Below are positions 1 through 53,335 of a DNA stretch of 64,000 bases, one piece after another; position 1 is the first letter of the stretch, and each line of letters opens with the position of its first letter. The position numbers and the translations under genes were made by a program. The notes under the pieces were generated by a model. The model had not been told where the DNA came from and ran no database searches. It saw only the letters and a program-made list of their open reading frames with translations. The stretch is from Deroplatys truncata (taxonomy: Eukaryota; Arthropoda; Insecta; Mantodea; Mantidae). The DNA lies in assembly GCA_030765065.1 (NCBI GenBank), contig CM060977.1, forward strand, positions 96,737,795 through 96,801,794. Direction: 5' to 3'.

Positions 1-475
1 CATTTTTCTAACAAGGATCATTTTTAACGCTTCAGGCACGGTTTTAAATTTAAAATATTGTACCAGATCATGAATAGATTGTACTGGACTTGAGGAAGCG
101 TTAAAATAAGGTAAAGGTAATTCATTGAGCACAGAATGATAGTTTGACACTTGATTTGGTACATGTGTGTTATCATTATTGTTTGAGATGCTGATGCTAT
201 GGAAAATACAGTAGCCTCTCTTGTATTATTAGTTAACAAAGGTTGAAACACTTCTTTCAACACATATTATTAGCATGCATTTGATTAGCATTTATTGGAC
301 TAGTTACATTTGTATTTGTCTTTGGTACACTGGTACTTAAACTTTCAAAACTATTATTAAGTTTATTTATTTCTTTGCTACTTTCTTGTACTTTATCATT
401 AATTTTGTCTATCATTGACATTACTTGTCCTTGCCCTGTATGTGCTTCTTTAATTGCATTTGTTTTAGCCATTTC

Positions 476-852
476 CGTGGCCGAGTGGTTAGACCGCTCG
501 CCTCCCACCGAGGCGGACCGGGTTCAATCCCAGGGACCTGCATGTGGGATTTGTGGTGGACGAAGCGGCGTCTGGGCGGGTTTTCTCCGGGTTCTCCGGT
601 TTCCCCCGCCATTCATTCCACCAACTGCTCCATCATCACCTTTCCTTTCATCCATTTCACGAACATTTCGCTTCATCCACTTCCTTCATCCCATACCAGG
701 CATCGGGCTGATCACCCATCCTGGATGTTCTGTCTGATCCATGAGTGTCTGCTCCTCGACGGGCCTCTAACCCCAGGCACCCGCCTGTAAGTCCTGGGGG
801 GTGTAAGTCCTATATAAGAGGAGGGTAAACAGATAATGAATGAATGAATGAA
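476..852 (+). mobile_element. SINE-A copy 1 (tRNA-derived, full length)
   Basis: A 377-bp tRNA-derived SINE. The head carries a pol III A box (GTGGCCGAGTGGTTAGACC from 477) and a B box (GGTTCAATCCC at 521-531), resembling a Ser/Leu-type tRNA. The tail is a run of TGAA repeats. A perfect 15-bp target duplication (TGTTTTAGCCATTTC) lies at 461-475 and 853-867. The body is nearly identical by eye to the copy at 47465-47852, so the family moved recently. The insertion lies inside the gag-like region of the older LTR element. Confidence 0.93.
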
Positions 853-6719: not shown

Positions 6720-8162
6720 TTTGTTCCACTGTTTAAAATAACCTTCTGTCTCATCATTAAGCCCCTGATTTGATATGAATCTTCATCCACCAACTCATTT
6801 CTTCAGATTTGAAAATAAAAAATACTCAGCTGGGAGACAACTTCGGCGAATGTGGTGGATGCGGAAGCACTTGGAAGCGAAGGTGATGTAGTTTTGCAGC
6901 CAAAATTGCATGCTATACAATATCGTGATAAAAGAGGAGATGTGGAAGTCGCAAGGTGTAGACGTTTAACACAAATAGCATTCTTCAAGTGGTCTAGTAG
7001 TGATGCGTAATGCTCACTGATGATGGTTCTACCGTTCTGGAGGTAAGTCTACGGGCACCACACCATGAGAATGACCGGAAACCATAGCTACGACTTTTCA
7101 TGCGGGTGGAACCGCTTTCTCTTTCCATGGAGCAATTTCACTTGTTACTACCCAGTTTTTGGGCTGCTCCTTCATCTCTGGCGTGTAGTAGTCAATTCAG
7201 GTTTCACATTATAAGAGAAACTCGCTGAAATTGCGTTTCAGTAAGTTTAAAGCTATTCAGAGGTATTCATTCACGTGGTTTTGATCCATTAACAAAAGCG
7301 GCACCAATCGAAAAAAAAGTTTTCTCATACCCAAAACTTCGAGTAAAATGTAGTGAGCACGACCTATCGAGGTCTTTACCATATAGGCAACTCATATAAC
7401 TTCAATCGCTGATCATAAGTACGGTAGGGTGGCAACATCTGTGGCCTGTATTCACGAGGTCCGGGGTTTGATTTCCGATGGCCGCCCACTCTGTCCATGG
7501 GGATTTTTGTGTTTTTACTCTGATGGCCTAGGTGATTTCCCCATTCCCTTTCGCTTCACCTCCCCCTCATATGTTTCAGGAGCTTCTTCAGGTCCTGCGG
7601 TGCTGATGCTGTCGGACAGATGACGTACTTGGTTGCGCATTGTAAAGACTTCTCCCCGCGAAAGCCATGATGGTGCGTTGTCCACCCGCTAGGGTCGCTT
7701 GGTCGCCCTCTCTCGGGATCATCGCCTCTACTGGTGAGTGGGTGTTTTAATCTGGAATTATTAGGAACTTCTACGCATCTATGTGGGTCTGTCTGTCTGT
7801 CTGTCTGTAGATCTGTGCCTCCTGCGGCTCCTTCACCTCATTCCTGCCTTCCGGGATGTTTAGTCACAATAGATCAAGTTGGTCGCAGTGACGTGTCCCA
7901 CGCCGATAAATACATCCTATATTCTATGACAGGGTGAATTTTTGTCACAAACTCTGGGTGTAATAGCTTCGGGACGCCGTGAGCGTTCTTGAATCTCTAC
8001 GATTACGTCTAAATTCATCAGCCCACTTCTTAACTGTCGAAATCGAATAGAACAATCCTTTAATACTGAACCTAACTCGTATTTTATTTCTGTTGAGCTT
8101 ATGCCACTCAAAAAGAAGTTGGTTTTATCACGCTGGTATAGTTTTATCCAACTATTTACCAC
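6720..8162 (-). pseudogene. Mariner transposase relic split by SINE-B
   Basis: The minus strand encodes both ends of a mariner transposase. The N-terminal part (8162-7917) contains SSTEIKYELGSVLKD and ends in a region resembling the RSGRPVEATTP linker of mariners. The C-terminal part (about 7020-6720) contains HPPHSPKLSPS followed by ISKSEEMSWW-like remains of the (Y/F)xLFPNLKKWL signature. Between them lies SINE-B (7420-7912). Stops and frameshifts throughout make it an old copy. The HPPxSPxLxPS wording resembles the mellifera subfamily. The D-to-K change at the third catalytic position (SPKLSPS for SPDLxPS) is one of many decay marks; terminal repeats were not found. Confidence 0.65.
7420..7912 (+). 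mobile_element. SINE-B copy inside mariner relic
   Basis: The tRNA-like head is worn (GTACGGTAGGGTGGCAACATC), but the core (CCGCCCACTCTGTCCATGGG) and the 3' module (CCTCCTGCGGCTCCTTCACC, TCACAATAGATCAAGTTGGTC) are clear. A GTCT microsatellite lies near 7787-7807. It separates the two ends of the mariner relic, so it inserted later than the mariner. Confidence 0.7.
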
Positions 8163-8172
8163 TTTTTACTAG

Positions 8173-8375
8173 TATGGCTTCCTTTGGAAGCGAAGTAAAG
8201 CCGGTAGTTCCGTGTTGTAGATTTATGGCACGTAAAAGAACTTCAAGCCTGATAAAGAGGCCTCTGACGAACATTTTCGGTCTTTCACGCCCTATATAGA
8301 ATGGGACCCTAAGAATCGTAGCAGTTAAAGAGCGTCCATATATATAATTCAACTCAATTCACAGTTTGTTTACAA
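8173..8375 (+). mobile_element. SINE-C 3' fragment
   Basis: The 3' two-thirds of the SINE whose complete copy lies at 57874-58177. Shared motifs are TATGGCTTCCTTTGGAAG, GGCACGTAAAAGAACTTCAA, CGGTCTTTCACGCCC and AAAGAGCGTCCATA. The tRNA-like head is absent. It abuts the 5' end of the mariner relic. Confidence 0.7.
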
Positions 8376-8654
8376 GATCCTCACAAATAAGAGACTATAT
8401 TTATGTGTCCGAACTTTGGAGCTCGCCATATAAAGTTCTATACTTAAACGTCAAGGCGCATATCTGAGTCAGGACGTGGTCATTTCCCTCGTAATTTCTA
8501 AACCAATAAACAGTCAGTAATTTCTAGTCAGTGTGCGTTTTAGAGGACTGAGATACCAAACTTAGAGGAGTTTAGAACGCTAAGGATGTATTTAATATAA
8601 CCCTCTCTTTGATCCCTAATGTTTATCAATTCTCTATTCCAGCACAGAAATGAA
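8376..8654. other. Unclassified stretch
   Basis: No recognisable gene or repeat. Confidence 0.35.
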
Positions 8655-10135
8655 CCAGAAAAATTTGAGTGCTACACTCACATGACTCTCTACCCTCTAT
8701 CGTTTATTAGTGAGTATACAATCTATTCTTCTAAAGCTTATTTTTCTATCTCTACAATTCAATCCAAATAAACCTTTGCAGAAATAGCTACATTACACAT
8801 TTCGTTATAGACGAAAGTGAACAGCGATAGTCAAATGTTTAAGAACTGAAACTACATGCTGGCCTTAAAATTCCGTACTGTTTCCACGAAATCGCGACGT
8901 AAAATTGAAAGTTGAATTTAAGTGAATGGCCGAATAATGAGCAATTTAGACCATTAATAACGAATATTACTTATGCCAGAAAATACATATTTGAAATAAA
9001 TTGCGTGTTTTGAACAAATCTATATTTTGATGTGGTACTTTTAAATATATCGCTTAAAGTTTACACGTTATGTAAGATTATACAACATTTCTTCCGAATG
9101 AAATGGACTTCACAGGTTGTTCCAAAAAAATTCAAAATATATATATTTCATTTATCATGTAAAAGCCTTTAATATTCAGTATTTTAATAAAAATCGTTAC
9201 GCCAATGTGTAGAAAATATAATTTTCGAACAAAGTACCATGTAAAACAAAGTTAGAGTGGAGAGATTTTCTCTAAAATCTTCATCTCGTATCCTTGGAAG
9301 ACACTGGATATAAATACTAAGTTTGGTGCTTATACGATTTTTCGTTTACAGACACACACATACATTTTTCTAAAATGATTTTTGTATTCAGATGCATATT
9401 TTGGGGTACTCTAAATTGAAAAAAAACAGTGTTAGGAAAATGTCTGTGTGTGCATAATTCAAAACCAAAAAGTTAGATAAGCACCAAACTTCCTGTTTAA
9501 GTTGAGAACCTCTCAAAGATGCGACACAAAGTTTTTGAAGAAATTCTTTACACGCAAGACTTTTAGAGACTTCGATTTTCTAAAAAGTGGCTCTAATGAT
9601 TTTGATTAAAATACCCTACATTAGAGATGTTTACATCGCAAATGAAAGTATATCTTGATTTTTTTTTGGAAATAGCCTGTGAAGTCCCCTTCATTCCGAG
9701 GAAGTTTGTACAATCTTGTACGACTTGAAAACGTTAAACCATAGACGAAAACGAACTACACTATAAGTAGATCTGTTTAAAACACACAATTTGTGTAAAA
9801 TAATGTTTTTGGCATAGGTCATTTTTGGGATATTGGCTATTAATTGTCCTAATTGTTCAATACTTGGCCATTCTCTTAGAGTGCTGTCAACATTCAACTG
9901 TTTCTCTATGACGTCATGGAATTTTAAGGCCAGTATGTATATAACATCCAATGTTGAAATGCTTGACTGTCGCTGTTCCTTTTGTAACCTAACAAATTGC
10001 TAATTGTTAAAATGAAGTAGATATAAAATTATTTCACGAAGACTCAAAGCGTGTATTTCCGGTGAAATCTGGGTATAAAGTTTTGGATGAAATACAACCC
10101 TTCCCCTACTTACTGCAGGCGAGTGGTAGAGAAAA

Positions 10136-10550
10136 TAATGATACAATAATTGAAATTATGTAATGTGCTATAAACAAGACTATATCTGCTACTCTGCTAC
10201 TCCACAGCTGCAACAATCATTACAGGGTTTGGAATATGGCAGGTTTTTGTGCATGAGAAGGGCGTTATAGTGTTTTGATTATCCGATTTTAATTACACGG
10301 CTGCTATACGAGGCCGCGTTATTATCCCAATTCGCTTGGCCAAGTAACGATGCCATTAAAATAATTCAATATATGATGATACTTATGGTCTTGGTCTATA
10401 CAACCCTGGATCAATAACCTTGTTCAGGATCAGTGCTTTTAGAGAGACATCGAAATGCTGTTTGTATCTGCCGTTGGTTCTCCATATTACTTCTAGTATC
10501 ATAACTAGAGTCTTTAAAGTGAATGTTGCAGATAAAATGGTTTCGTATGT
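10136..10550. other. Unclassified stretch inside FB-1 block
   Basis: AT-rich DNA with no terminal repeat, reading frame or match to another part of this window that I can see. Confidence 0.35.
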
Positions 10551-10845
10551 TTTACTTTCTCCACTACCAGATAGAATATTACTTCAACTCAAAAAATCGA
10601 TACCCATTTTTCACCGGAAACATAAATTTTGAGGCTGAATTTGAAAACAGCATTAAAATAAATCTAATGTCATACATTCACATGACTTACTCTTCCGTCT
10701 ACTTTTATTAGTGTGTATACAAGCTATTCACACTAAAATTTATTTTTCTAACTATTTCATTTTAATCTAAATAAACATTTGCAAAAATAGCTACATTTTG
10801 CAATAGATACAAAGAGAACAGCGATAGTCAAATATTTAAGAACTG

Positions 10846-11125
10846 GATGTTATTCTGGATTCTGGACTCTAGTTTCGGGCAGGCCTTCCTTGAGGGAACT
10901 CTCGTTGGCTGGGGTCTGTGGGTGTGTACGGGTGGTGTTAAATGCGTTCAATCTGAAAAAATTAGGGACCCCGTCCATGATTATGCCGTCGTCACCAGGA
11001 TCTGGTTAACCTTCGGGTACCTCCCCTCACCCCTCCCTTCCAGAGGTCACGATAGAGGCACATGGAGCCGGATGGCCTACATGCAGTAATCTGATCGGGT
11101 TTCCGGGGACCCTCCTTCGTCACTA
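10846..11125 (+). mobile_element. SINE-B-like 3' part, tentative
   Basis: GC-rich insert within an FB-1 copy. The segment CCCCTCACCCCTCCCTTCC resembles the corresponding part of the minus-strand SINE-B copy at 55515-56047 (GGAAGGGAGGGGTGAGG). The tRNA-like head is missing. Confidence 0.35.
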
Positions 11126-12845
11126 CTTTTTGCTTTCTCTACCACGCACATAGTAGATAGTATTGCATTTCAGCCAAAAACTCGATACCCAGATTTCACC
11201 GGAAATTTGAGGCTCCCTGAATACAGAAAGGAAGCTTTTTAGAAAAAAGTCCGTGTGTGTATTTGTCTGCCTGTGAACAGCGTAAGTCAAAAAAGATAAT
11301 TCCGAAAGACACAAAACTTGGTATTTAGGTTCAGTAACTTCCAAAGATGCAACTCAAAGACTTTAAAGAAAATCCCTTCACCCATACTACACTTTACATG
11401 GAACGTTTTTCGAAATTTTTTATTTTATAAAAAACGGATCTACAGGGTTTGATTAAAATACCATATATTAAAGATATGTACATGAGAAATAAAATGTGTA
11501 TCTTTAGTACTCTGAGAATAGCATCTTGGGTCCTTTTCATTAGGAAGGAACTTTGTGTAATCTTTTATAATCTTGATTAAACGTCAAAAGGTAGACGAAA
11601 ACGCATTACACAAGAATTGTAGATCACTTTAAAACACATAATTCATCTGAAATAAGCTTTTTGTGGCATAGGACATTTAGGAAATATCCATTATTAATGG
11701 CTGGAGTTGTTCGTTACTTGTTCATTCAATTGAAGTCCTTTCTACATTCAGTTGTTTCTCCCGATTGCGTGGAAACAGTATGGAATTTCAAGGCCAGTGT
11801 ATAGCGTCCAGTTGTTAAACATTTGATTATCGGTGATGCCTTTGTATCTATAGCGAAATGTGTAATGTAGCTATTTCTGCAAAGTTTATTTGAATTAAAA
11901 TGAAGTACATAGAAAAAATGATACGATACATTAACTTTTGTCTGCGCTCTATCTATTTTTAGTGTATACACAAACTCTCGTACGAAAGCTTATTTTTCTA
12001 TCTTCTACATTTTAATTCAAATAAGCCTTTGCAGAAATAGCTTCATTACACATTTCGTTACAGATACATAGTGAACAGCGACAGTCAAATGATTAAAAAC
12101 TGGACGCTATATGCTGCCTCAAAATTCCATACTGTTTCTCCATGTAATCGTGAGATACAACTGAATGTTGAAGGGAATTTAAGAATGACTAAGTAATGAA
12201 CAATTTCAAACTTTAATAAGTATAGGTATCTCAAAAACGGCTACTAAACCTTATTAAAGTAAATTGTGTCTTAAATATGTACATTTTTGTTTAGTACGTT
12301 TTCGTCAATTGCTTAACGTTTAGCAGTTGTAAAATATTATACAACATTCTTCCAACTGAAGTGGACTTAGGAGGGCATTCTCAGAAAATTAAAGACACAC
12401 ATTTTATTTTACATGTAAATATTTTTAATATACTGTATTTTAATCAAAAACGTTAGATTCATATTTTAGAAAAGCAAAAGTTTCGGAAACTGTTCCATGT
12501 AAGGTGTAGTTTGGGGTAGGAAGATTTGATTCAAAATCTTTGAATGACATCCTTGGAAGGTATTGAACCTAAATACCAAGTTGGGTATTTATCCGACTTT
12601 TCGTTTTTGAATTATGCTGTTCACAACAGACAGACACACACATATTCTGTTTTGTATTCAGGGGGCCTGAAAGCATGTATTTTCGGTGAACTCTCGGTAT
12701 CGAATTTTTGGGTGGAATATAATACCCCCCTAGTAACTATACGTAGTAGCGAAAGTAAAAAGCTTTAGAAAGATGAGTCTGTATACCGAGTAATAAACGA
12801 TAGAGAGTTGAGAAAGTCATGTGAGTGTGTCACATCAGAATTTTG

Positions 12846-14765
12846 TTTCCTTTTTGGGTGACAGTGGATCGCCTTTTGTTACTGCTGTTTGTAGTTTGAA
12901 CTTCTTCCCCTGTTTGTCTAGATGTATTCTCCCTGTAGCGTTTGGTTAACGGTGATGATAATCCTCAAATCATCATCACCAACCGCTCTTGTTGCTTAAA
13001 ACATTTATTATTCTCGTTACATTTCTGCATTTGCAGTGCACACGCATGGTAAGGTTCAAACATAAAATAAATGTAACTGTTTCACTATAGCTGTTCCTTT
13101 CACACGAAACTACCTTGTGTAGCGGTACTGGGGTGTTATGCTAGGAGCGGAACGAATATTTTCATAATTTAAAACGGCAAGGTTATAGGCCACAGAGGGG
13201 CATAAGCCTGCGTGCTCGTGCACGCGCTTGTTACGCTTAATTACTACACGGTGTGTATGGGTGCACACTAGAGGGCGAACTCTGTCCTGCTGTGAAGTAA
13301 ATGTCATACCAACGCTGTGCACAACTTTTCCACCAAACGCACGCTCACTTCGTGTTAATGAGTGGAAGGCGAAAAGACTTGTGATAATTATGCCTAATGA
13401 CTTGTGGCACTCTTGTTTTCGTTTTTGTATACCTCTGGCGTTTACAACAAAGAAAGCGAAGTATGTCTTTCAACCACGATAATATACAACGTGCAGTTGT
13501 TCCCCGCTGAATGTATTTTGTAAACGCGGGTTGGTGTATTAACTCGTCCTTTTGAGCATAACTTGCAGTGTGTCCACATGCCAATATATTAATATATGAA
13601 TTAATATATTATTTCTGATAATTATCTTGGTATTTTCGTAGTTATTATTAAATTGTTTATGATGTTATTATACTTTTTGCCACGGATTCTGTTGTATGGG
13701 CTTTTGGTAGAGCATTTTTAACTTATCAGAGTCTGGTACGGGAAGAAAGCATGTGGTAACAATAGTAACACAAGATTAAATCAGTGGAACTACACAATTC
13801 TTTAATGACACACGCATTTTCTGCTGTATTAATAAGGTACACCGTTACTTTAGAAATAATTGTGTTAGTTGGAGCTGTAGAAAGGTCGCTTAGTAATCAA
13901 GTATTTTATAAGTGCTCGATTAATAATGGTATTAATGGTGCCTAAACTATACTTTGTTTCCCTTCTCATAACTTTCCATTTCAAATTGATATAATTTCAA
14001 CGTTCCTATTACATTATGCTAGGTAACTAATAACTCCTGCTTCGGAGAGCTTATACCTATGTTCTGCACATCGCCGCATTTATACGCAACTGAATTTGGC
14101 TTGGGGACTCTATCTTTAATTTCCCTAAACTTAAACATTTAAACACATTTTTCTTAAAACCTTATTGGCTGTCTTTCTTCAGCTTGGAGCATTCCAGAAA
14201 ACCTACTAGGCTATTGTTCGTGGTTTCCAAACATGTGACCTCTCTTCAAAAATATGTTGTGTTAGCTTGTCGCATATTTTCTTACACAGTGACTCAAGGT
14301 CTTACTATTGTGACTTCCCTACAAGTCGGTTTGCCTCGGCCCTAATTCTAACGAAACATGTATGTCTGCTTTTAATAAGTGTCCCACAGCTTAAGCTAAA
14401 CTTTTAGACATACATAAAACTTATGCTTTAACATATATTTATATAACAAGTTTTTTGCTTATTAATATTATTTTACATAATAATTTAAATTATTATGTAC
14501 ATGGTATATATGACCATAGTTACTGTTTCAGGGTAAAACATCTGTTCCAATTTTTCTTATTAATATGCTAATAGAAACACGTAGGAACCAATGAATAACA
14601 ATACACAGCATCATATCAGACAGGAATAAACATGGTTGAAGATTTTACACAGATAGGTACAATAATTAACAACAATGGTGGAATTCGAGAAAAAGAATTG
14701 AACAAATTAACCTTATTTGGCGCTTTTATCGATATTTCAGTCTAAAGACTACACACCGAGCGTGG
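12846..14765. other. Long unclassified stretch
   Basis: About 1.9 kb without a supported gene or repeat. Frames up to 84 codons occur on both strands near 13110-13580, but they overlap each other, show no motif and end quickly. An AT-only palindrome-like run (AATATATTAATATATGAATTAATATATT) lies near 13584. This may be host intergenic DNA. Confidence 0.45.
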
Positions 14766-24324: not shown

Positions 24325-25590
24325 AAAAGAAATATGGTGTGTTACATTCACAAATACCTTTTCTGTCTACTATTTCTAATAAACGGATGTAGAAATTATT
24401 GTTAAAAAATTTAATCTTCCTATCTACTATATTTTAATGAGATGAAACCTTCCGGAAATAGCTGCATTACACATTTTTTATGGGTGTAAAGATAAATACG
24501 GCAGTAAAATCTTTAGGACGCTATATACCGGCTTTAAAATTCCATACTCTTTCCAATAGCGAGAAACAGCTGAAAATCGACATGTCTTAATTATAAGCAT
24601 TGCAAAATGCAACCATTAATAACAGATATATCGGAAATGGCTTATGCCACAAGAATTCGTTTGAAATAAATTATGTATCTTAAAGACATTTACATCTTTG
24701 TGTGCTACGTTTCCCTGTATTGCTTAAGATTATACAAAATTCCTTCCGTATTTAGAGGAAATCAAAACCTTTACAACTGCTTTTGAGAAAATAAAAATAA
24801 CAAAAAGATTACCAGGTAATGTGTAGGTTTGGGCTGAAACTAAATACCAAGTTTCGTGTCTCACTGACCTTTCGTTTTGTGTTATGCTGTTCATAGACAT
24901 ACGGTCACACGCTCACCCATCCAACCAACCCCCCCCTCCCACACACATACACACACACACGGGCGCGCGCATAATTTTCTAAAAGTCGTCTATTTATTCA
25001 GGGAGCCTCATAACTTGTATTTCCGGTCAAAACTTGGTATCGAATTTTTGGGTGATATAACAATACCTTTTCTACTAAGGTAAGTAGTAGAGAAGGTTAA
25101 AAAGAATCTGGTGTGGTACATTCACATGACTTCTTCTACCGTCTATTTTTATTAGTGGATATGCTAACTGTTCGTAATAAGCTTATTTTTCTATCTACTA
25201 TATTTTAATCCAAATTAACCTTTGCAGAAATAACTACATTACACATTTCGTTAATAAATACAAAGAATACAGTGGCAGTCAAATGTTTAAGAACTGGATG
25301 CTATACGCTGGCCTTAAAATTCCGCACTCATTCCATGCAATCGCGGGAAACACCTGAATGTTGACATGATTTTAAGAACGCGCTAAGTAATTAACAATTC
25401 GAAACATTAATAACGGATATCTCATAACTGGGTTATGCGTTTTCGTCTATCGCTTAAAATTTACGAGTTATACAATGTTTAACAAAATTCTTTCCGTGTA
25501 ATTAACTTCTCAGGCTACTCCTAGGAAATTCAAGATATAAATTTTATTGTAATGTGAATATCCCTAATATTATGCTACTTTAAACAAAAT
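24325..25590 (+). repeat. FB-1 repeats in direct tandem
   Basis: Two plus-oriented copies follow one another: about 24325-25090, then about 25095-25590. The junction runs from the inner end (TATCGAATTTTTGGGTGATA, then AGTAGTAGAGAAGG) straight into the next outer end (CTGGTGTGGTACATTCACATG). This shows the full unit from outer to inner end. A CA/CACG run lies near 24940-24970. The second copy is truncated where S begins. Confidence 0.72.
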
Positions 25591-26817
25591 CATCATAGCC
25601 ATCTTTTATTAAACAAACAATATTCAGTGGTTTGTGGCCTGAGGACAGACATCTTAGTATTCGTTTCCAATTAATTTCGATTCCAAATCCCAAAACCTTG
25701 ATTACTAACCTTACTAAGTACACCGATGTGTACCGATGTACACCGACCAGTATTGATACCTCATCTGCTTTGTTCAAAGTTCCTTGTTTCCTACGACCTG
25801 CGTGCAACATTCCGCAAATTTTATACTTTCGGCAACTTCTCTGTCTTGGCTGCTTGGCGGAGTACAGAGTTATCAGGAAATACCTAATGATTGAAATCAT
25901 TCTTGCTTTGGTATCTTTGATGTTCTAGAGAGCATAAGAATCCTTCGGCTGGTTTCGGTTGAAATCATGGTCAGTGCTTTGGAGATACATCTCACAAATA
26001 AGAGTATCAGGTATCTAGTTATGAAGAAAACTTAAAGCCAAATGTGTATATATTTATACACATATATAAAAACACCTCTTAACTGAGAGTATTATGAAGT
26101 TATTTTCTCTTGAAGTCGATATACCAACAGGGAGTAAAATTTTTTCTTTTCTTAAACAAGCAATATGCAGTGGTTTCTGGCCTTATGGCATAACCTGTCA
26201 ATATGTGCTTGCCTATTAGTTGCGATTCGAACCATTGACCCTTGAGTATTAAACTTACTATAATTGATGAACACGCAATCGCATTCATACCTTATCAGCT
26301 TTCTTTAAAATTGATTGCTTCCTTGTCTTGCTATTATGTAACATTCTGCAAATGTTTAAGAACTGGACGGCAATTTCTCGGACGTAGTAGTCTTGCAGGC
26401 ACGCGGAGATGCCAGGGAACGTCAGTTAATTGAAATGATTCCTGTTTGCTTGCAGTTAAGTGTCTGAAGTTTTGGAGTTGTTAGAATTCCTTCTGCTGCA
26501 TTGAAATGAAACTCTGGTCAGTGCTTTAGAAATGCATGTCAAAAATAGAAAAAATGCAGAGTAATTAAGTAGCAAACCTAAACCGAAATATATGTAAGAT
26601 ATTTTCTATATTATATATAATAAAAAGATGTGGTGGTTTGTGGCCTAAGGCCAAAGCTCTCAATATGTTCGCTTATTATTTTTGATTCGAACCACTGACC
26701 GTTGAGTACTAAACTTGCTAAACTTGAACCCAGACTTAACCTTGTGTTCCATTAACCCTCGATTCTTACGACTTGCGTGTAACATGCAAATTCTTTTTTC
26801 TACCCCTGATAGTGCGG
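25591..26817 (+). repeat. S repeat array, block 3
   Basis: Unit starts lie near 25605, 26143 and 26620 (spacing about 538 and 477 bp). The last unit stops at TAGTGCGG (26810-26817), where the composite LINE block begins. The same unit resumes at about 35370 with GTGCGGCAAGTTTTCCG, so the two halves belong together. Confidence 0.75.
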
Positions 26818-27850: not shown

Positions 27851-27958
27851 GTGCGAGTTATTTGTGTGCTGTTGTGTACCGTTTTCAGTGTCTCCGAGTA
27901 CACGCTTGTTTAATTGGGTGTACTTTCTTTCTTGTTTCGTAAGTTCTAAACGGTGACC

Positions 27959-28955
27959 ATGGCGATTTATAAACGTGTGAATACTCTCAAAATTCAGTTT
28001 ATGACGACGGCGATTAAACTCACTGCACTAGAAACCTACCAGTGGCTAGTGAATTTCATGGGGCTTCAAGCTGATCAGGTTGACACGCTCCAGCTTTACA
28101 CCAGAGAACGAGCTATCTATGCGAAATTGTTATCGGCGGTATTGTATGATAATCTTCTCTCGCGTTATAAAGAGGAACAAAATTTTACATATGCCTCCGG
28201 CGACATAACAAAAGTGAATATTACACCGGGTGATCAGCAAACAGTAAATGTTCGGGTGTTTAACCTGCCTTCTGAGGTGCCCTTTACGGCACTGTCACAG
28301 GAACTGAGTAAATATGGTACAGTGTATGATATCCGTAGGGAAAGATAGGGATCGCAGTATCTTCTTTCGTCTAACAACGGAGTGCATGCTGTAAAAATGG
28401 GGCTCAAACGTCATATACTGGCTAGTTTAGTTATCGATTCGTATTTGATTGCCATCAGTTACATCGGCCAACCACAGGCTTGTCATTTGTGTCGTGACAC
28501 TACCCACTTAAAGGCAGCTTGTCCTCTTCGTGCCACGCGGCTACCTATAACTCCAAGGAATCGACCGGTAACATTCAGTGAGGCGGCGAGTGCTGCCACC
28601 TCTTCTGATGCAGTCGCCCAGAAGCGGGCTTCCATTATGTCACAAACGTCTGTGGTAGAACCTTTGTCGGTGAACCTTCCAGCGCACTCTTCCAATTCAG
28701 GAAATGGTGGTCCTGCTGGGGCGGAGACACCGCCGTTGACTGCAGCAACCGAACATGCAATTGTGGATGGATCTATTACGCCCTTTGTTGATCGGAAGTC
28801 GGCAAAATTCTCAGGATGGGGACTTGGAGATCGTTTGTGATGAAGAAGTAGAGATATCGGCGAGTGAGGTAGCACTTTTAAGGCAAAAGCCTTCTGCTTC
28901 TTTGTCTAGTCGAGATTCTCGGATACGGAGCCAGCATAGGCGGATGGATGTATAA
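27959..28955 (+). pseudogene. Tx1-like LINE ORF1, broken (copy a)
   Basis: The start codon at 27959 sits in a good context (GACCATGG). The product begins MAIYKRVNTLKIQFMTTAIK and contains NVRVFNLPSEVPFTALSQEL followed by KYGTVYDIRRE, then a TAG at 28346-28348. The same frame continues with a CCHC zinc knuckle, CHLCRDTTHLKAAC, near 28480. After about 28810 the reading shifts frame and ends RDSRIRSQHRRMDV at 28955, comparable to the SSRDPRIKKRR tail of copy b. ORF1 proteins of this group bind RNA and form the retrotransposition particle. Confidence 0.78.
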
Positions 28956-29205
28956 AGTGCCATGACACGACAGCACTCCCAAGATGTGCAACCGTTGCCC
29001 GGTAACTCTCCGGCTCGTTCCACAACGAAAGAGGCGGACTCAGGCAAGCGGCCGGTAGTAGATGACAGCGATGATTTTGAGGATCACCAACGTTCCCCTA
29101 AACTTACAAAGGATGACCCGCACCCGGATAGTGATGATTGAGATTGTGTTGTTTCTGGAGTGCTCCCTGGTTGTTCTCCGATTGCAACCATTGAATATAC
29201 GATCC

Positions 29206-29661
29206 TTGCCCTTTAAATGCCGGTAGGTCTTTAAATATGGGCTTCGCACAACGTTAACGGCCTGCGACAGGTTATTAAACAACAACTTTTAAGGGACTTT
29301 TTGATCAGTAATGACATAGACATTTGTTTTTTACAGGAGGTGAATCTTTGTAATCTGGATTTTTTGTATGGCTTCGATTACGAGGCCAATCTTGGCCCCG
29401 AGGGTTCCGGTACGGCAATTGTTTACAGACAAGGCTTACGATTACACAGTTTTGGATACCATCCTTTCGGTAGGGTTCTTTCGGCAGTTAATGATGACGT
29501 GACTTTCGTGAACATCTACGCACCTGCTGGTAGTAATAAACGCAAACAACGAGAGGAGTTTTTTCGGCAAGACCTCCTGACCCATATCCCATCGGGTGCT
29601 ACCTTTGTGCTTGTCGGTGATTTTAATTATACGTTGGCGGCCAAAGATCAACGCGGAGCCT
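29206..29661 (+). pseudogene. Tx1-like LINE ORF2, endonuclease part (copy a)
   Basis: The frame reads WASHNVNGLRQVIKQQLLRD, then ICFLQEVNLCNLDFLYGF, GSGTAIVYRQGL, FVNIYAPAGSNKRKQREEFF and VLVGDFNYTLAAKDQRGAF. These are the N-terminal motifs of an APE-type endonuclease (SHNVNG, QEVN, GDFN). The coding sequence stops at the TTAA where piggyBac inserted and continues at 32162. The likely initiator is the ATG just upstream of WAS (about 29237), though the context is worn. Confidence 0.82.
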
Positions 29662-29665
29662 TTAA

Positions 29666-32157
29666 CCCTCCGTCAGGCGCGCGCTTTGGTAGAACGCCGT
29701 TAGTCGCGCAGGGCCTAGTAGACCCGCGCTATATTTTTGTTGTTATTGTTTGTATTTTTGTTTTATTTCGTTTATTTTCTTTTTTTCCTGTTTTTACCTT
29801 TATTTAGATTAAGCGTACAAGGCTTTCATTAATAGGTATTGTCTTACAACATAAAAATACAAGCTAAAATATGAGTACATATACGTTATAAATTGTATTA
29901 CAGTAAGTATAAAGAAATACATTGTCATTTCCAGGTATACATACAACTTGTAATTTCAAATGTTCAGTTACTCAGAATCATCTACTATCTCACCCGTGTT
30001 TTCCCCGACTAAGCAACTTTCGCAAATAATTTTAGCATGCTTACTCAAACACAGGGGGATGTTGCATTTCCCACATGCATATTTAGTTTTGCAGTTCATT
30101 TTGTCTTTGTTGCAAGGTTCACATCGTTTACTTTTCAATGTGCATAGTGGTGTATTTGACAATTCATCTACGCCGGATTCTTCAGGTTTATATTTTGTCA
30201 AAAGCCCTTTCAAATCACCGGGTAGATTTGATGCTGTTGCTCTCCTTTGTAGCTGTTGCAACAGTAAAGCTAAAGATAGTGCTTTCAAATACTCTTGCCT
30301 TGTGGAATATTTATTTTGGTTTCCAAGGAAGATAACCCTAGAATTGATACCTGCAATGTTCAAGATATGGTAAAAAATTACCATGGGCCACCTTCTCGTT
30401 GTTCTGGCTACATTGTAGGTAGCACACAATTTATCTACTACATCAACTCCAGATTTCGTGTCGTTGTAATGCAGGATTATTTCAGGCTTTTTCTCAGCAC
30501 CTTCTGATAACTGTGTGGATGAAAAATGTAGACTTGAGAGCAAAACTACTGTTTTACCCTTTTTTGGAACATATGAAACAAGCGTTGCATTTTTTGTGAA
30601 GCCAAATATACTTTCGTACTGTCTGCGATCTTTTGGAGAAGTAAAATTAGTGGGTAACTCTTTTTGTTCTTTCGCACTGTACCTACGAAAGAAAGTTGTC
30701 TTTTGCGCAATTCATTCACCAGCGTTACACTGGTAAACCAATTATCTGCAGTAACGTTTCTTCCAGTGCCAGAAATTGGTTCAGTTAGTCTCATCACTAC
30801 AACCTCTGCCGAGTTAGTTTGCAAATATGGTCCTTCCGGCTGCTGTCCACGATAAATCTCCATGTTAGTTGTATAAAACAGTTTTGCATCACTCAAACAG
30901 AATATCTTTATGCCATACTTGTTTGGCTTGGATGGTATATATTGTCGAAAACCACATCGACCACGAAATGCCGGCAACTGTTCGTCGACAGTTACATTTT
31001 GTCCAAGAGAATAATGGTTCTGACAGTTGTTCAGAAACAATGTAAACATTTCTCTAACAGCAGCCAATTTATCCAATCTTCGTCGTTCCAGTCTTGAGCT
31101 TTTGTCACCAAAGCGAATACAGCGTATTAGAAAACTGAATCGTTTTTCAGACATAGCCATTCGGAATAGAGGAATTCCAAGGTCATCGGTTCTCCAAAAA
31201 TCGTGAATATTCTGGCGTCCACCACGAAAAATTCCTGCCAGGTCCAATAAGCCTAGGAAAGCTCTTATTTCTATTACATCTGTAGGCCTGCTGTCTCTTT
31301 CACGATCAAATTTGTGCTGCACACTACTAATGTAAGTATTTAAGATTTCAACAATCAAATCAACTATATCTTCGGTAACAAAAAGGTTCCAACAATCAAT
31401 TTCCGTTTTCGCATTTTTGGCAGCTCCTACCACACCAGGAAGTTTGGTCAATATATTGTGAGCCCTTGTCTGTGTCATTTTCAAAGGTGTTTTTTTCCAT
31501 TTTGTTCCATCTCTTCCTGTAAATAACAACAGAATGTATTGTCAGTAATAATAATAATAATAATAATAAGAAGAAGAAGAAGAAGAAGAAGAAGAATTAC
31601 TATGATACGCATATGATGTTACCTATAAAATACATGCTATCACACAAGCTGCTTTCATCGTCTTCCTCTTCATCTTCATGGTCAGTTTCTGAATATAAAG
31701 ATCTCGTTTCGAGTTTATCTTCTGAATCAGAGTCATCTGATTCATATAAGTTGTCATCCACGGGCAAGGCATCATCATTGCAAAGTAGACGATGTACTTC
31801 TTCCAAATCCTTGGGATTTTGTAGATCGTACCTTTTACTCGTATTCATGACGAAGCAGTAACAGTTCCTTGCATAGCAAAGCAATATTGCACAAAAGCTA
31901 ATAAGAAACAAATCTGTCAACAATATGTAACGAGAGCAGGCGCGCGGGGCCTGGTTGACCTGTGCGACACGTAACTGCTGATTATTCATTCCTCCAGCCA
32001 AACAAATAAACAGATAAGGTTATCGCTGCAGCAAATAATCGCCAAAGGTGTAATGTTAGATGTCCTAGTCAGGCAATTGCATAGGTGCGTTCGTTCGAAA
32101 ATTATAACATTTATATAATGCCAGGGGTCCCTCTGGCCCCTAGCGACTGACGGAGGG
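29666..32157 (-). mobile_element. piggyBac transposon, nearly whole
   Basis: A 2492-bp element flanked by TTAA at 29662-29665 and 32158-32161, with terminal inverted repeats CCCTCCGTCAG(G/T)CGC. TTAA duplication and CCC-starting ends define piggyBac elements. The element interrupts the endonuclease of LINE copy a between GAF and the following LQQLVEQI, and the reading resumes across a single TTAA. It carries one transposase gene on the minus strand. Confidence 0.95.
29968..31848 (-). CDS. piggyBac-type transposase (two exons, one frameshift)
   Basis: Exon 1 (31848-31623) starts MNTSKRYDLQNPKDLEEVHR and is acidic at its end. A 106-bp intron (31622-31517) has GT..AG borders and contains a TTC/TTA microsatellite. 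Exon 2 continues IGRDGTKWKKTPLK, the usual entry to the DDE domain. Catalytic aspartates sit in TVDEQLPAFRGR, ADNWFTS and SGVDVVDKLC. The C-terminus has a cysteine-rich domain (CEPCNKDKMNC, ACGKCNIPLC, CESC). One frameshift near 30660, in a short A run, separates GTVRKNKK from ELPTNFTSPKDRRQYESIFG; apart from this the gene is open. A sequencing error could explain it. Confidence 0.88.
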
Positions 32158-32161
32158 TTAA

Positions 32162-34990
32162 TGGGTGTGTTACTTTGCAGCAGCTGGTGGAGCAAATCCG
32201 GTTAAAGGATACCTGGGAGCATACGCATGATTCCTCAGTACAATTTACTTTCGTGAGAGGCCTATCAGCATCGCGGCTGGACCGCATGTATGTTCCGACT
32301 GAACTCTTATCACGTCTTCATCGTACAGAGATAGTGCCTGTCGCATTCAGTGATCATAATGCACTCATACATGCCTTTGAAGGTAGAGCAGCGATCTACA
32401 GCATAGGTAGAGGTTATTGGAAACTAAACTGTTCGTTGCTTATGGATGAGGACGTGCTAAGGGATTTCCAGGATCTTTGGTCGCGGTTGCGGGTATCCTT
32501 TCTGCTAGCACAGAATAAAGCCTTCTGGTGGGTGTGTAAAGCCAAGCCTGCGCTTCGGTATTTCTTTCGGGCTGCAGCCTGTCGTCGAGCTCTGGCTAGG
32601 AGGGAAACCATGGACTATTACCTTCAAGTTCTTCAGAAACTACACATACGCCAACAGCAAGGTGAAGATGTTCAGTCTCTTATGAGAGGCATCAAAGAAC
32701 ACATTAAGGCCCGAAAATCTAACGAGTTACAGGGGTGTTTGTCCAAAGTACACTCGGCGGAAGTGGTGTTTGGGGAAAGGCGAGTTTTTACCATCTGGCG
32801 AAGGAACGTAAACATGGTCGCCGGAAGCTCGTCACTCATTTGGAGGTTGATGGACAGAAAATTTCCACTACAGCCGGAATTCTTCGTGAAGGGCACTCCT
32901 TTTACGTCCAACGCTTCTCCGTCCCAGCGGAATGCTCCATGCTGTGGACGAGTATATGTCTGGGGTTGCTCCGGTTGTCCCGGAGGAACTGCGGCAGGAT
33001 ACGACACCTGTTTCAGCAGCAGAGTTCATGGAAGTGATCCAGTCGTCAAAGTTGCATGCGTCTCCAGGACCTGATGGTCTACCATATGAATTTTACAAGC
33101 ACTGTTGGCGCTATATTCGGGAATAATTACTTCAAGTTTTCCAGGTAATGTGGACCTCAGAGCGATTGCCCCCTACTTTTGCAGATGGGATAGTGGTCCA
33201 GCTTCCGAAGTGTGCGCAGCCGAAGACTCCACAGGATTATCGGCCGATCTCGTTATTGAACTGTGACTACAAGTTGTTTGTTAAAACATTAGTGTTCGTA
33301 TGCAGAAGATTCTACCCTATATACTTAGCGAGATGCACGCTGCCGTACATAAGGGGACGGCCATTCATCATATGCTGGCGGCATTGAGAGGTGGTATATT
33401 GCACTGTGCACAGGAACAACAGTCCGCTGCAGTCATTAATTTAGACCTTGAGAAGGCCTTTGACAACGTCGTTCACGGGGCACTATGGAAACGTTTGGTT
33501 GCATTGAAAGTGCCCGATAAGCTCCGTAATCTTATCCGAGCCCTATATGACGTTGCTTCGTCTAAGATTCTCTGCAATGGGTATCTCACAGCTGCTATAC
33601 CGGTTAAACATTCCGTCCGACAAGGTTGTCCCATGTCTATGATACTATTTGACTTGTATGTTGATCCTTTACTTCGAGTCTTCAATCTACTCTTACCGGA
33701 ATCGATGTGTATGGTCAGAGACTGGTGGTACGAGCCTACGCTGACGATATTACTGTAATGGTTACCACACCCCACGGTATTATGCGCCTAAAAGATTGTT
33801 TACAGCAATATGAGGAGAGTACCGGAATGACATTTAATATGAGGAAGTCCGAGATATTGCCCATTGGTTTACAACCTCCGGATACATCAGTTTTGGGCAT
33901 TCCTGTTGTGCAGCGTACGAAGGTTCTGGGGATCTACTTTAGTACTGACGCAGAGGATATGCGGGAATACAACTGGACGTCTCGTATTAATATCTTACGT
34001 GGTGTGATGTAATCAGCAGAAAACCAGGATGCTGAATCTGGTACAACGTATATGGTTTTGTAATAGCTTTGCGCTCAGCAGAATTTGGTTCCTTGCATCT
34101 GTTCTTCCGCCCTCAAAACGCCATTGCCAGAGAATAGAACAGATATTAGGTTATTTTATCTGGACAGGAAAGCTTTATCGCATTGCGCGTACTCAACTCC
34201 GTCTCCCTAAAGGTCAAGGTGGCTGGGGATTATTAGTCTCAGGTCTTGATGTTTCGAATGCTCTTGCTTGCCATGAATAACCAGGGTGACCCCGTGAATG
34301 TTGCGCTACAACGACAATACTCATCTTTTTTGAATCGGGGCGAGCGTGACAAGGTTCCCCAAATGTTACGTGAAGTTTATCAGGTCTTGGAGAAGTTACC
34401 ACCGGAGAAAGTGGGGAATGGTGACTTTAGTACGGTGAAGAAGATTTACACCTTTCTTGTTCCTATTATCCCTCATGTCCAGCTGAAATACCCACAACTG
34501 CCCTGGAGACGCATTTGGAGATGTTTTAGCCTTCCACAGATTAACTCCGATTGGATGGCAGTAACGCATGCGGTGGTAAACGAAATCCTTCCAACGGCGG
34601 ACAAACTCTATCGCCACCGGATGGTTATTTCCCACAACTGCCCACTTTGTAATGCCGCAGATTTCCTTCCTCATCGACTGATGGAATGTTCCGGTAAAAC
34701 TGTGGTCTGGACTTGGGTTTTAGGATATTGTCGTACTTGGATACCTACCGGATGGATTCCTCAACCCTCGGATATTTTGCATTTGAGCCTTCCTAAAGTA
34801 ACCCCACCATTGTATAATTCCCTACTCTGGCTGATTATGGGCACCTTTACTTAGCTACAAAGGTTGGACGATCCAGCTGATTGTGTACTGCCTCAACTAT
34901 GACAATGTTTACGTGCTGAGAGATGGCAGATGATTCGGCAACACAGAACAGAGCCATTGCAGCCTTGGATATTCAGGTTTAAGCTCCACT
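32162..34990 (+). pseudogene. Tx1-like LINE ORF2, rest of gene (copy a)
   Basis: This continues the endonuclease (SASRLDRMYVPTELL, FSDHNALIHAF), then the linker, RT and C-terminal region. RT motifs seen are SPGPDGLPYEFYKHCW (about 33060), DYRPISLLNCDYKLF (about 33240), INLDLEKAFDNVVHGALWKR (about 33435), VRQGCPMS (about 33620) and AYADDITVMV (about 33730). The C-terminus has a Cys/His cluster, HNCPLCNAADFLPHRLMEC (about 34635). Breaks include shifts near 32735, 32930, 33280 and 33700, a stop after CWRYIRE (33124) and one after GVM (34010). The catalytic YADD survives, so decay is moderate. Confidence 0.82.
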
Positions 34991-37392: not shown

Positions 37393-38706
37393 CGAGGGTA
37401 ATTCAGAAAGTCCCAGACGTTTTGAAATAAACAATTAACAAAATGCAAATATCAACGTTTATTATCCCATTTGAAAGGTACACTCTTAAGCTATTTTTTA
37501 CATAATCGCCATTCAAATTGAGGCGTTTATCATACCGTGGCACAAGTTTTTCAATACCCTCTCTGTAGGGGTCTGCCACCTGCGACTTCAACCACTGGTG
37601 TACACCGGCATGCAGTTCGGAGTAGGTATCAAAGCGTTGTGTACCGAGCCATTTCTTCATCGCTGGGAAGAGGTGATAGTCGCTCAGCGCCAAATCTGAG
37701 CTGTATGTTGGATGGTCAAATACCTCCCATCCAAAACCATCCAGAGTGTTCGGATACGATTGGCCGTGTGTGGGCGTGCATTGTCGTGAAGAAACGTCAC
37801 CTTGGTGCTATGTTTTCCCCAACGCTTATTTTGTACGGCACGCCTTAACTTTCTTAGTATTTCACAATACCTCTCTGAGGTTATTATTGTTCCACGTTTC
37901 AGAAACTCAACGAGAAGCACACCCTTAGAGTTCCAAAACACAGTAGCCATGACCTTTCTTGCTGACAGCGTTTGCAAACACTTTATTGGTTTCTCAGGAA
38001 AATGTGTGTGTCCCTAATCCATCGACTGCTGTTTTGGTTCTCAATTGACATGCTTCACCCTACTCTCGTCCCCGGTTACGATAGGATCGAGTAAAGCGTT
38101 ATCATATTTGTTGAAATCTTGGAGGAAGGTCAGTGCTGCGGCCAGTCTGTGTTTTTTATGGTCTTCCGTTAGGATTTTCGGAACCCACCCAGTACAAAAT
38201 TTCTGGTAACCAAGCTTCTCCACCACAATTTGATGCACCAAACTCCGTGACATTTGGGGAAAATGTTCCGAAAGTTCTGTAATAGTGAAACCACGATGTT
38301 CACGAATTTTGTCATTGATTTGCATTGACAGTCCATCAGTCATAAGGCTACGCCTACCACTGCGATCCTCGTCATGAACATTGGTACGGCCATTTTTAAA
38401 ATCAATGCAGTATTGCCTGTCTTGGCTTTCACTCATAATTCCCTGCCCGTAAATATTACAAAGTTAACGATAAATTTCAATTGGTTTGTTCTTTTTGGCC
38501 AACTGCATTTCACAAGTGGCGGGATTTTCTATTTCAGCGCACATTTTAACAACTCACAGAGAGCAGAGTAAGGAAGGCACAGTTCTTAAGCTACCACAGC
38601 TGGATGCGTACTGAATGTAAGAACGTTCTGACACCAAGATGGCGGCTCCTGCCCTACTCATCGCCACGATAGGCCAAATCGTCTGGGACTTTCTGGACTG
38701 CCCTCG
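37393..38706 (-). mobile_element. Mariner transposon
   Basis: A 1314-bp element with terminal inverted repeats CGAGGGTAATTCAGAAAGTC (left) and CGAGGGCAGTCCAGAAAGTC (right, inverted), flanked by TA at both ends (37391-37392, 38707-38708). It is inserted in an S repeat. Size and ends are typical of mariner elements. Confidence 0.93.
37470..38544 (-). pseudogene. Mariner transposase, broken
   Basis: The first ATG is at 38544 (MCAEIENPATCEMQ, then KKNKPIEIYR followed by a stop). A longer frame (38436-38041) reads NGRTNVHDEDRSGRRSLMTD and ILTEDHKKHRLAAALTFLQD, with the first catalytic D in IVTGDES. Further frames give KVMATVFWNSKGVLLVEFL and TFLHDNARPHTANRIRTL (second D), and ALSDYHLFPAMKKWLGTQRF (third D, DD34D). 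The C-terminus follows in the same frame. At least one stop and two frameshifts separate the pieces. Confidence 0.88.
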
Positions 38707-43287: not shown

Positions 43288-43374
43288 TGTTTGAGAATAA
43301 AGCCAGGGGAGGCAATATTGACATTTGGAATTTCTACAACTTTGGTCCAATTTTTCTTTTTTCTTTTACTTTGT

Positions 43375-45020
43375 TTACTATGGTACAGTAAGTAGGGAAA
43401 GAACTGCATTCCACCAAATGCATGTCAAGATTTTGAGATTTTACCGGAAATACATGTTTTAAGGCGCACTGAATGCAAATAAAGCATTTTTGGAAACATG
43501 ACAATGTGGGTGTGTCTGTGGGCTGTGTATCTATTTGTGTGTGTCTTTGTATATCCGTCTTTGAACAGTATAGCTCAGAAAAGAAAAGTCGGAACTTTGT
43601 ATTTCAGTTTAGTATCTTCCAAGGTTGCAGTACGAAGATTTTTAAGAAAATCCCCCACCCCAGCTAACCCTTAGGTCTAAAAACTGTCGAAAATTTTGAT
43701 TTTCTAAAAAATGGCTCAAACGATTTTGATTAAAATACCATATAAAAGACATATACATGGAAAAGAAAATGTACATCTTGAATTTTCTGGGAATTCGCTA
43801 GCAGGCCCGCTTCATTTGGAACAAATTTTGCATAATGTTGTATAACTTGTAAACTTTAAGCGAAAGTCGGAAACGCACGACACAAAAATGTGGATCTCTT
43901 TAAAACACACAATTTACTTAAGTTTTTTGTGGCATAGTCCGTTTCTGAGATATCCGTTATTAAAGTTGTTCAATACCTGTTCGTTTTAAGTCCCTTCGAT
44001 TTTCAGTTGTTTATTGCGATGTCAGGCAAACAATATGGAACTTTCAGGCAAGCATATAGCGCCCAGTTTTTAAACATTTGACTATCGCTGTTCTCTTTGC
44101 ATCTATAACGAAATGTGTAATGAGATAACTATATATTTTTTCAAATGTTTATTTTGGATAAATGTAATAGATAAAATAAAATCTGTTGTGTTACACTGAT
44201 ATGACTTTATCTACCCTTGTACACACTATTTTTACAAACGCTTATTCTCTGTATGCTTCGTGTTAATCGAGATATCGAGATTTAATCTTATTGCCAATTT
44301 TCTTGTAGATGCAAGGGGAATTGGTAGGCTTTAAGCGATAGTCAAATGTTTTAACAGCTGATTGCTATATAGTGTATTCCATTCTCTTTGCATTACCAGG
44401 ACAAAAAAGTTATTAACGAATTCCCATTTGAGAAAAAGTACAAGTGTTGGAAAATCTAAGGGAATAACAAGCAATATCTCGAAAATAGTTCACTCAACAA
44501 AAAATGTATATGACATAAATTGTGTATTTTAACGCGATATACATTTTTGTGTAGTAAAACTTTGTCTATCTGTTATGGTTTACCAGTTTTGCAACAATAC
44601 TTTTGGAGACATTCCCAGAAAATTCAAGATATACATTTTATTTGTCATGAAAATATCTTGAATACATGATATTTTAATCAAAATCGTTAGAGACATTTTT
44701 GAGAAAATTAAAATTTTCGAAAAATGTTCCATGTAAAGGGTAATCTGTGGTAGGAGAATTTTCTTGAAAACCTTCGTGTCGCATCTCTGGAAGATACTGA
44801 ACGTAAATACCAAGCTTGGTGTTTATGCGACTGTTCGTTATGCTGTTCACAGACAGACACAGACAGGCAGACAGACACGCACACGGCCGTGTTTCCAAAA
44901 ATGATTTTTTTTGGATTCAGGAGGCCTCAAATCATATATTTCCGGTGAAATCTCGGTATCGAATTTTTGGGTGGTTCACAACACTTCCCCTTACGTACTA
45001 TACGTAGTAGAGAAAGCAAT
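43375..45020. repeat. FB-1 palindrome
   Basis: A minus copy (about 43375-44180) and a plus copy (about 44190-45020) join at their outer ends (AAATCTGTTGTGTTACACTGATATGAC at the centre). Arms are about 0.8 kb, the same geometry as 11127-12765. Both inner ends carry TATCGAATTTTTGGGTGG or its remnant and the TATACGTAGTAGAGAAAG border. Confidence 0.78.
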
Positions 45021-45035
45021 AACTGCACCTCCGCT

Positions 45036-53149: not shown

Positions 53150-53335
53150 GTTTTGATACCAAGAAACTCGAATCTAATTTCGAAAATGTCGAATTTTAGT
53201 AATTTATACACAAACAAAGCTTGTGTAAAATGACACGTAGCAACAGCGGTAACAGAAATAAAGTAGGTCACGGAGCTAAGCACACAGTGCAACCTGCCTC
53301 TCTACTCGCACAAGCGAGACTGAACTGAAACGCTG

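Follow-up and report, generated by a model that had tools for sequence, protein, structure and literature searches.

Several palindromes with arms of about 0.8 kb occur in a 64,000-nucleotide stretch of contig 3 of the Deroplatys truncata genome (4.29 Gb, 818 contigs), hereafter the window, and they raise the question of what kind of element builds them and why its copies alternate in orientation. In a first-pass annotation the repeat, FB-1, was said to match no known class, and a foldback transposon, a dispersed satellite and the terminal repeats of a larger element were suggested.

The FB-1 unit and its copies in the window

Self-alignment confirmed that the alternating palindromes of a single unit are real. 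It recovers 11126-12762 as an inverted pair (73% along 1,696 columns, E=0) and also 8853-9939, where the match is weaker (66%, E=3e-76). The unit also recurs across the window as had been reported, since its profile detects 35 fragments covering 14,382 of the 64,000 bases (22.5%), while the same profile detects none on the reversed window. To define the unit, the left arm of the main palindrome was matched to the genome, 39 loci surrounding its best matches were fetched, and a consensus was built on the 40 arm-spanning copies in these loci, a set that lies outside the window and is biased toward the best matches to the arm. The consensus has 885 bp, and conservation among the 40 copies falls at TTTTT/ACTTTC on one side and at CATCAGA/TTTTT on the other, so that T-runs terminate the unit at its 5' and 3' ends. 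The repeat unit of 0.8-0.9 kb proposed earlier is thus upheld, but not its inner end, as the unit runs about 85 bp further.

The consensus ends are TTTTTACTTTC and CAGATTTTT. A 12-bp inverted repeat is formed by ACTTTCTCTACC at positions 6-17 and its partner GGTAGAGAAAGT at 847-858 of 885, in agreement with the short inverted border noted before, whose sides contain CTTTCTCTAC and GTAGAGAAAG. The 3' subterminal inverted repeat (subTIR) sits 27 bp inside the 3' end, and a second inverted repeat, GGTAGAGAAGG, lies at 30-40 beside the 5' subTIR; the inverted repeats of FB-1 are asymmetric. A GT-rich microsatellite (GT/GTCT), the CA/GT array seen in the first pass, was located at about 139-158, and a long AT-rich body extends from it to the 3' subTIR. 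Further downstream, a hairpin with a 6-bp stem (ATGTGA-ATGTA-TCACAT) occupies 860-876 and is followed by CAGATTTTT; the last 45 bases fold at -8.5 kcal/mol. The unit was rightly called non-coding, given that no open frame of at least 120 aa was found in 8655-12845. A search of 8000-14000 against Rfam gave three matches, all to microRNA families and far under the gathering scores, which we rejected as effects of AT-rich hairpins. The mean likeness among the 40 copies is 79.8%, and the copies are old.

The main palindrome consists of two copies. The left arm of the host copy (element 1-799, plus strand) spans 11127-11917, starting with TTTTT and the 5' subTIR GCTTTCTCTACC at 11132-11143. A second full copy at 11913-12761 lies on the minus strand, reversed within the A5 run of the host (element 795-799), which belongs to GATAGAAAAATAAGC; this insert is bounded by A6 at 11913-11918 and A5 at 12757-12761. 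The host copy then resumes on the plus strand at 12762-12844 (about element 800-885), with its 3' subTIR, hairpin and T-run end. An analogous arrangement is found at 43364-45021, where the profile places a plus-strand host copy (element 2-801) at 43364-44178 and a reversed insert (element 883-2, minus strand), at the A5 site of the host, at 44179-45021. In addition, a plus-strand copy at 45818-46656 (element 3-882) lies reversed, near the A5 site, in a minus-strand host represented by the fragments 46658-47351 and 45738-45834, and the T5 run at about 121-127 of the same host received a copy with an intact 3' end in direct orientation (47347-47468, minus strand). Similarly, a plus-strand fragment at 10550-10654 (element 2-123) is broken at its A7/T5 sites (112-126), and a copy with an intact 3' end (element 883-682) lies reversed at about 123-126 of it, on the minus strand at 10660-10853.

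The palindrome reported at 8740-10015 as joined at inner ends is present, although its junctions do not fall at clean unit ends. According to the profile, its left arm (8667-9391, minus strand) runs from element 876 to 104 and its right arm (9392-10031, plus strand) from 85 to 801, with both ends missing, and it is followed by a minus-strand fragment at 10032-10138 (element 109-4) with a GTAGAGAAA border. The junctions therefore join element 104 to 85 and 801 to 109, and the whole of 8667-10138 is presumably a damaged relic with deletions. The direct tandem described before is also real. Its first copy, internally deleted and split into three fragments, lies at 24331-25101, and its second, in two fragments, at 25104-25621; both are damaged, lie on the minus strand and are joined head to tail via the terminal T-run. 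Head-to-tail runs in the window never exceed two copies.

The window contains other elements as well. Two long open frames of 1,116 and 387 aa are present on the minus strand at 48678-53173; by eye the former resembles an endonuclease/reverse transcriptase and the latter a zinc-knuckle protein, and we take them to form a nearly intact non-LTR retrotransposon, of which 27950-34854 (plus strand) is seemingly a broken relative. Open frames on the minus strand at 29968-31541 and 37403-38463 look by eye like transposases of the piggyBac and mariner type, respectively, and are presumably such. Another repeat occurs twice, at 285-790 and 47530-47934, with the common apparent frame RVVRPLASH..GGPGSIPG, and a 36-bp tandem repeat of 3.6 copies is located at 63446-63573.

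Nested insertion and the origin of the palindromes

Five of the fetched loci (L013, L021, L022, L031 and L040) contain a lone two-ended copy, with no second arm match at E<=1e-5 within 5.7-5.8 kb, and the palindrome is therefore not the mobile unit. The arms were also aligned, a check suggested in the first pass, and in three palindromes the two arms resemble one another no more than they resemble other members of the family. Specifically, the likeness between the arms is 77.6% for 11127-12761, while each averages 78.0% against the 40 other genome copies; the respective values are 68.8% against means of 75.5 and 71.6% for 43364-45021, and 70.7% against 76.4 and 74.7% for 8667-10031. The arms derive from separate insertions of an old family and not from inverted duplication.

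Insertion targets were studied at 163 copy ends (86 5' and 77 3') from the window and the 39 loci, an end being considered adjoining when it lay within 12 bp of another copy. This applied to 37 ends; the remaining 126 were left out. Of the 37, ten are head-to-tail joints at the terminal T-run and 27 are interior; a run of at least four Ts (T4+), read along the insert, is found within 8 bp of 19 of the latter, the chance expectation from the consensus being 0.195. After merging ends into events, 14 of 19 nested insertions lie at T4+ in insert orientation (P about 5e-7). The 20 event rows were reduced to 19 because the ends at 45816 and 46661 of the window belong to one insertion; the two ends in L047 were likewise merged but may represent two events, in which case 14 matches among 20 give P of 1.3e-6. 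Among the 20 rows, seven have only a T-run, one has only an A-run, five have neither and seven have both within 8 bp, the last being uninformative on polarity. Five of the 19 nested insertions are away from any T4+ run. Thus, insertion at an A-run of the old copy gives a reversed insert and a palindrome, and insertion at a T-run gives a direct insert.

The A5 run interrupted in the main palindrome has been broken repeatedly. Within a few bases of element 799, breaks were also found at 3551, in the host of 45818-46656, in L009, in L034 and at 44178/44179. Five of the 19 nested insertions fell at 795-799; with the 28 A4+/T4+ runs taken as equally likely targets, P is about 4e-4. Three of the five come from this window, and the sample is small and uneven. 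The insertion at 44179, which was dropped by the length filter and stands outside the nested-event counts, is a sixth at this site.

Empty sites were sought for 39 full copies, and 12 junction-crossing matches were obtained. Five were discarded as matches to the copy's own locus (L019, L029 twice, L042 twice) and two as gapped matches to other loci (L018 and L044), while those of L027 and L043 were ambiguous, leaving three usable cases. The joined flanks of 11912-12761 of the window, 3260-4121 of L009 and 144-1075 of L026 match the uninterrupted consensus. In these three clean empty sites no base is repeated outside the A/T run, and the number of Ts following insertion exceeds that of the host run; the runs in L009 and L026 are interrupted, and a few A/T bases may be duplicated there. 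Furthermore, no fixed-length duplication of 4, 5, 6 or 8 bp at offsets of 0-12 bp stands out among the 39 full copies, the best z being 3.1 in 676 offset tests and the top identity 0.718 versus a permuted mean of 0.717, although variable T-run lengths weaken this test.

These observations bear on the suggestion of a foldback transposon or MITE with 0.8-kb terminal inverted repeats, in which the palindrome itself would be moved by a DDE transposase. The several palindromes of the window are what such an element would leave, but we consider it very improbable, given the single two-ended copies, the arms that are not sister copies, the asymmetric inverted repeats and the 39 copies in which no fixed-length target-site duplication was found.

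Class of FB-1 and its candidate autonomous partner

HINE/DINE-1 elements are described as having subTIRs, an inverted repeat beside the 5' one (in DINE-1), a microsatellite, a 3' stem-loop and two to five border Ts (PMC4067079; PMC2374699). FB-1 carries subTIRs and a 3' stem-loop, has T-rich targets and T borders, is non-coding, nests in its own copies and shares its ends with a Helentron that encodes Rep, helicase and endonuclease-like domains. Its anatomy thus fits a class that is already described, contrary to the first impression, and FB-1 is almost certainly a HINE/DINE-1, that is, a non-autonomous Helentron that shares both ends with an autonomous one. The idea that it represents terminal repeats belonging to some larger element came close, in that the FB-1 head and tail are the two ends of the autonomous Helentron.

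At least 152 genome matches to Helitron_like_N were obtained (150 of 291 candidates scored), and among the matches listed at least 18 lie in open frames of 2,108-2,543 residues. In one copy, assembled from L048 and L049 with one unknown base at the seam, a 2,387-residue frame contains Helitron_like_N (PF14214, E=2e-27), a PIF1 helicase (PF05970, E=1e-28) and an endonuclease-like domain (PF14529, E=8e-6) whose 26.1 bits are just below the 27.4-bit cut-off. Its Rep motif (HxH motif), VEFQMRGSPHEH, has a serine between G and P, a feature given as diagnostic of Helentrons (PMC4067079). From the head to the first tail this copy measures about 10 kb. The N-terminal part of the frame (3-3095 of L049, minus strand) also matches Herpes_teg_N (PF04843, E=2e-9) and DUF6570, and a K/E-rich repeated stretch appears in an overlapping frame at L049. 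A second Helitron_like_N group, whose matches reach higher scores (up to 196 bits), mostly carries stop codons, e.g., at 38116489-38117034 of contig 1; it possibly consists of older canonical Helitrons.

The ends of four further Helentron copies, picked for long frames (2,324-2,441 residues), were fetched. Each of the five sampled Helentrons starts with an FB-1 head of about 565 bp, which reaches element 568 and matches at 77-84% in blast, and in each the first FB-1 tail corresponds to the last 37-38 bp (94.6-94.7%). Compared with the FB-1 consensus, the heads show 87-89% likeness. L053 and L055 diverge from the other three directly after the T-run of the first tail. Before the T-run of the head, the sequences preceding the L056 head and the first L054 head are unlike one another and unlike all others, while the remaining heads have a common upstream stretch, which also joins tandem heads. 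Since the flanks differ outside head and tail, we take the FB-1-like head and tail as the Helentron's own ends; the five copies are near-identical by descent and do not constitute five independent proofs.

Two FB-1-like heads lie in tandem in L054 (223-791 and 850-1413, 627 bp apart) before the coding part, partial heads occur upstream of the Helentron head in L052 (471-1053) and L050, and a second tail follows 216-231 bp behind the first in three of the five (L048, L051 and L057). Tandem heads and second tails fit composite elements formed by self-insertion.

The 3' 500-bp stretches of the Helentrons are 99.2-100% alike, and the sampled Helentrons are young. As FB-1 is old, it was probably mobilised mostly by earlier Helentron relatives. 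Moreover, the Helentron ends that were fetched contain no full counterpart of consensus positions 569-847, and a simple internal deletion of these copies would therefore not produce FB-1. Judged from its ends and domains, the Rep/PIF1-helicase/endonuclease Helentron is the likely partner of FB-1.

A non-autonomous canonical Helitron (Helitron1) would likewise be expected to have a Rep/PIF1 partner and a 3' hairpin and to leave no target-site duplication, and no fixed-length one stood out here. Nevertheless, this reading has very little to recommend it. Helitron1 is defined by a 5' TC, a 3' CTRR and insertion between A and T (PMC4067079; PMC5148889), whereas FB-1 ends in TTTTTACTTTC and CAGATTTTT and inserts in T-runs; it also has asymmetric inverted repeats, and its partner combines a GSP Rep motif with an endonuclease-like domain.

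For FB-1 as a HINE, we propose that proteins of the autonomous Helentron, supplied in trans by this Helentron or an older relative, would copy it by rolling-circle replication along a single-stranded route. New copies insert in T-runs with fixed polarity, and FB-1 itself carries A5-A7 and T4-T6 runs. A new copy landing in the A-run of an older one is reversed and produces a palindrome, while one landing in an internal or terminal T-run keeps the same direction and produces a tandem. The alternating palindromes thus follow from fixed-polarity landing in T-runs together with the A- and T-runs inside FB-1.

Abundance and comparison with known systems

The kind of element is already known, and its abundance in this genome is the notable part. 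With up to three mismatches, an internal 26-mer, the 33-base tail and an internal 27-mer of FB-1 occur 118,882, 264,191 and 297,800 times in the genome, respectively, and the tail occurs 1,626 times exactly; the reversed versions of each pattern gave no occurrences. The first pattern had been chosen because it is frequent in the window, and counts for repeats may be lower bounds. The densities of the three patterns are 27.7, 61.6 and 69.4 per Mb in the genome versus 172, 31 and 94 per Mb in the window, and scaling the genome share from them was dropped because the ratios are discordant. In eight 2-kb pieces taken at round coordinates FB-1 covers 13.7%, all of it within three pieces. Together with the window, an 80-kb sample in total, this points to FB-1 making up 10-25% of the genome.

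Among the matches listed, 15 exact matches to the 26-mer, all on the minus strand, are clustered within 0.37 Mb of contig 1 (39,027,785-39,393,472), perhaps as a local amplification of FB-1. The very high copy number, some head-to-tail pairs and this same-strand cluster might suggest a dispersed satellite spread by recombination without transposition of its own, but a satellite is hardly credible for copies that are dispersed, have sharp ends shared with a coding transposon, target T-runs, insert inside one another and in the window form head-to-tail runs of at most two.

We found no account of an 885-bp FB-1 family in the literature searched, where families were compared by description and not by sequence. 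On that basis, the HINEs of the mite Metaseiulus and of Culex, as described in PMC4067079, resemble FB-1 in their subTIRs, the 3' one being set in, in a palindrome near the 3' end, in microsatellites, border Ts and T-rich targets, and in a partner Helentron with Rep, helicase and endonuclease. The 3' subTIR is offset by 27 bp in FB-1 and by 38-60 bp in the mite elements, and identity to the partner is reported as 84-99.9% in the mite and above 95% in Culex (PMC4067079), compared with 87-89% for the FB-1 head. Unlike these HINEs, likened here by description, FB-1 has a part of its body without counterpart in the fetched Helentron ends. The features given for DINE-1/INE-1 of Drosophila (PMC2374699) also agree with those of FB-1; however, the FB-1 consensus is without central tandem repeats, its subTIR differs from the ATACCCGTTACTC given for D. 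melanogaster (PMC2374699), and its copy number is far higher. FoHeli, a Helitron2 of Fusarium oxysporum, is described as having asymmetric terminal inverted repeats like those of FB-1, and as inserting into itself to give nested elements and multiple 5' ends (PMC5148889), which resembles the nesting of FB-1 and the tandem heads of the Helentron seen here. A high share of rolling-circle elements has a precedent in grasshoppers, where Helitrons are reported as 7-20% of repeatomes (PMC7486953).

The repeat thereby gains a class, a partner and a mechanism, where a repeat annotator might label it as unknown, foldback or MITE. Its kilobase palindromes are explained without inverted duplication, by polarity-locked insertion into homopolymer runs of older copies. 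Tentatively, and at somewhat less than even chances, we suggest that a single HINE family accounts for between a tenth and a fifth of this 4.3-Gb genome and carries the landing pads for its own copies, in that A5-A7/T4-T6 runs, above all the A5 at 795-799, would draw copies of fixed polarity, and self-nesting would write long palindromes genome-wide. If the window is typical, the share of FB-1 would exceed the Helitron figures given for bat (6%) and Heliconius (6.62%) (PMC4067079), and rolling-circle passengers would be a main cause of the size of this genome.
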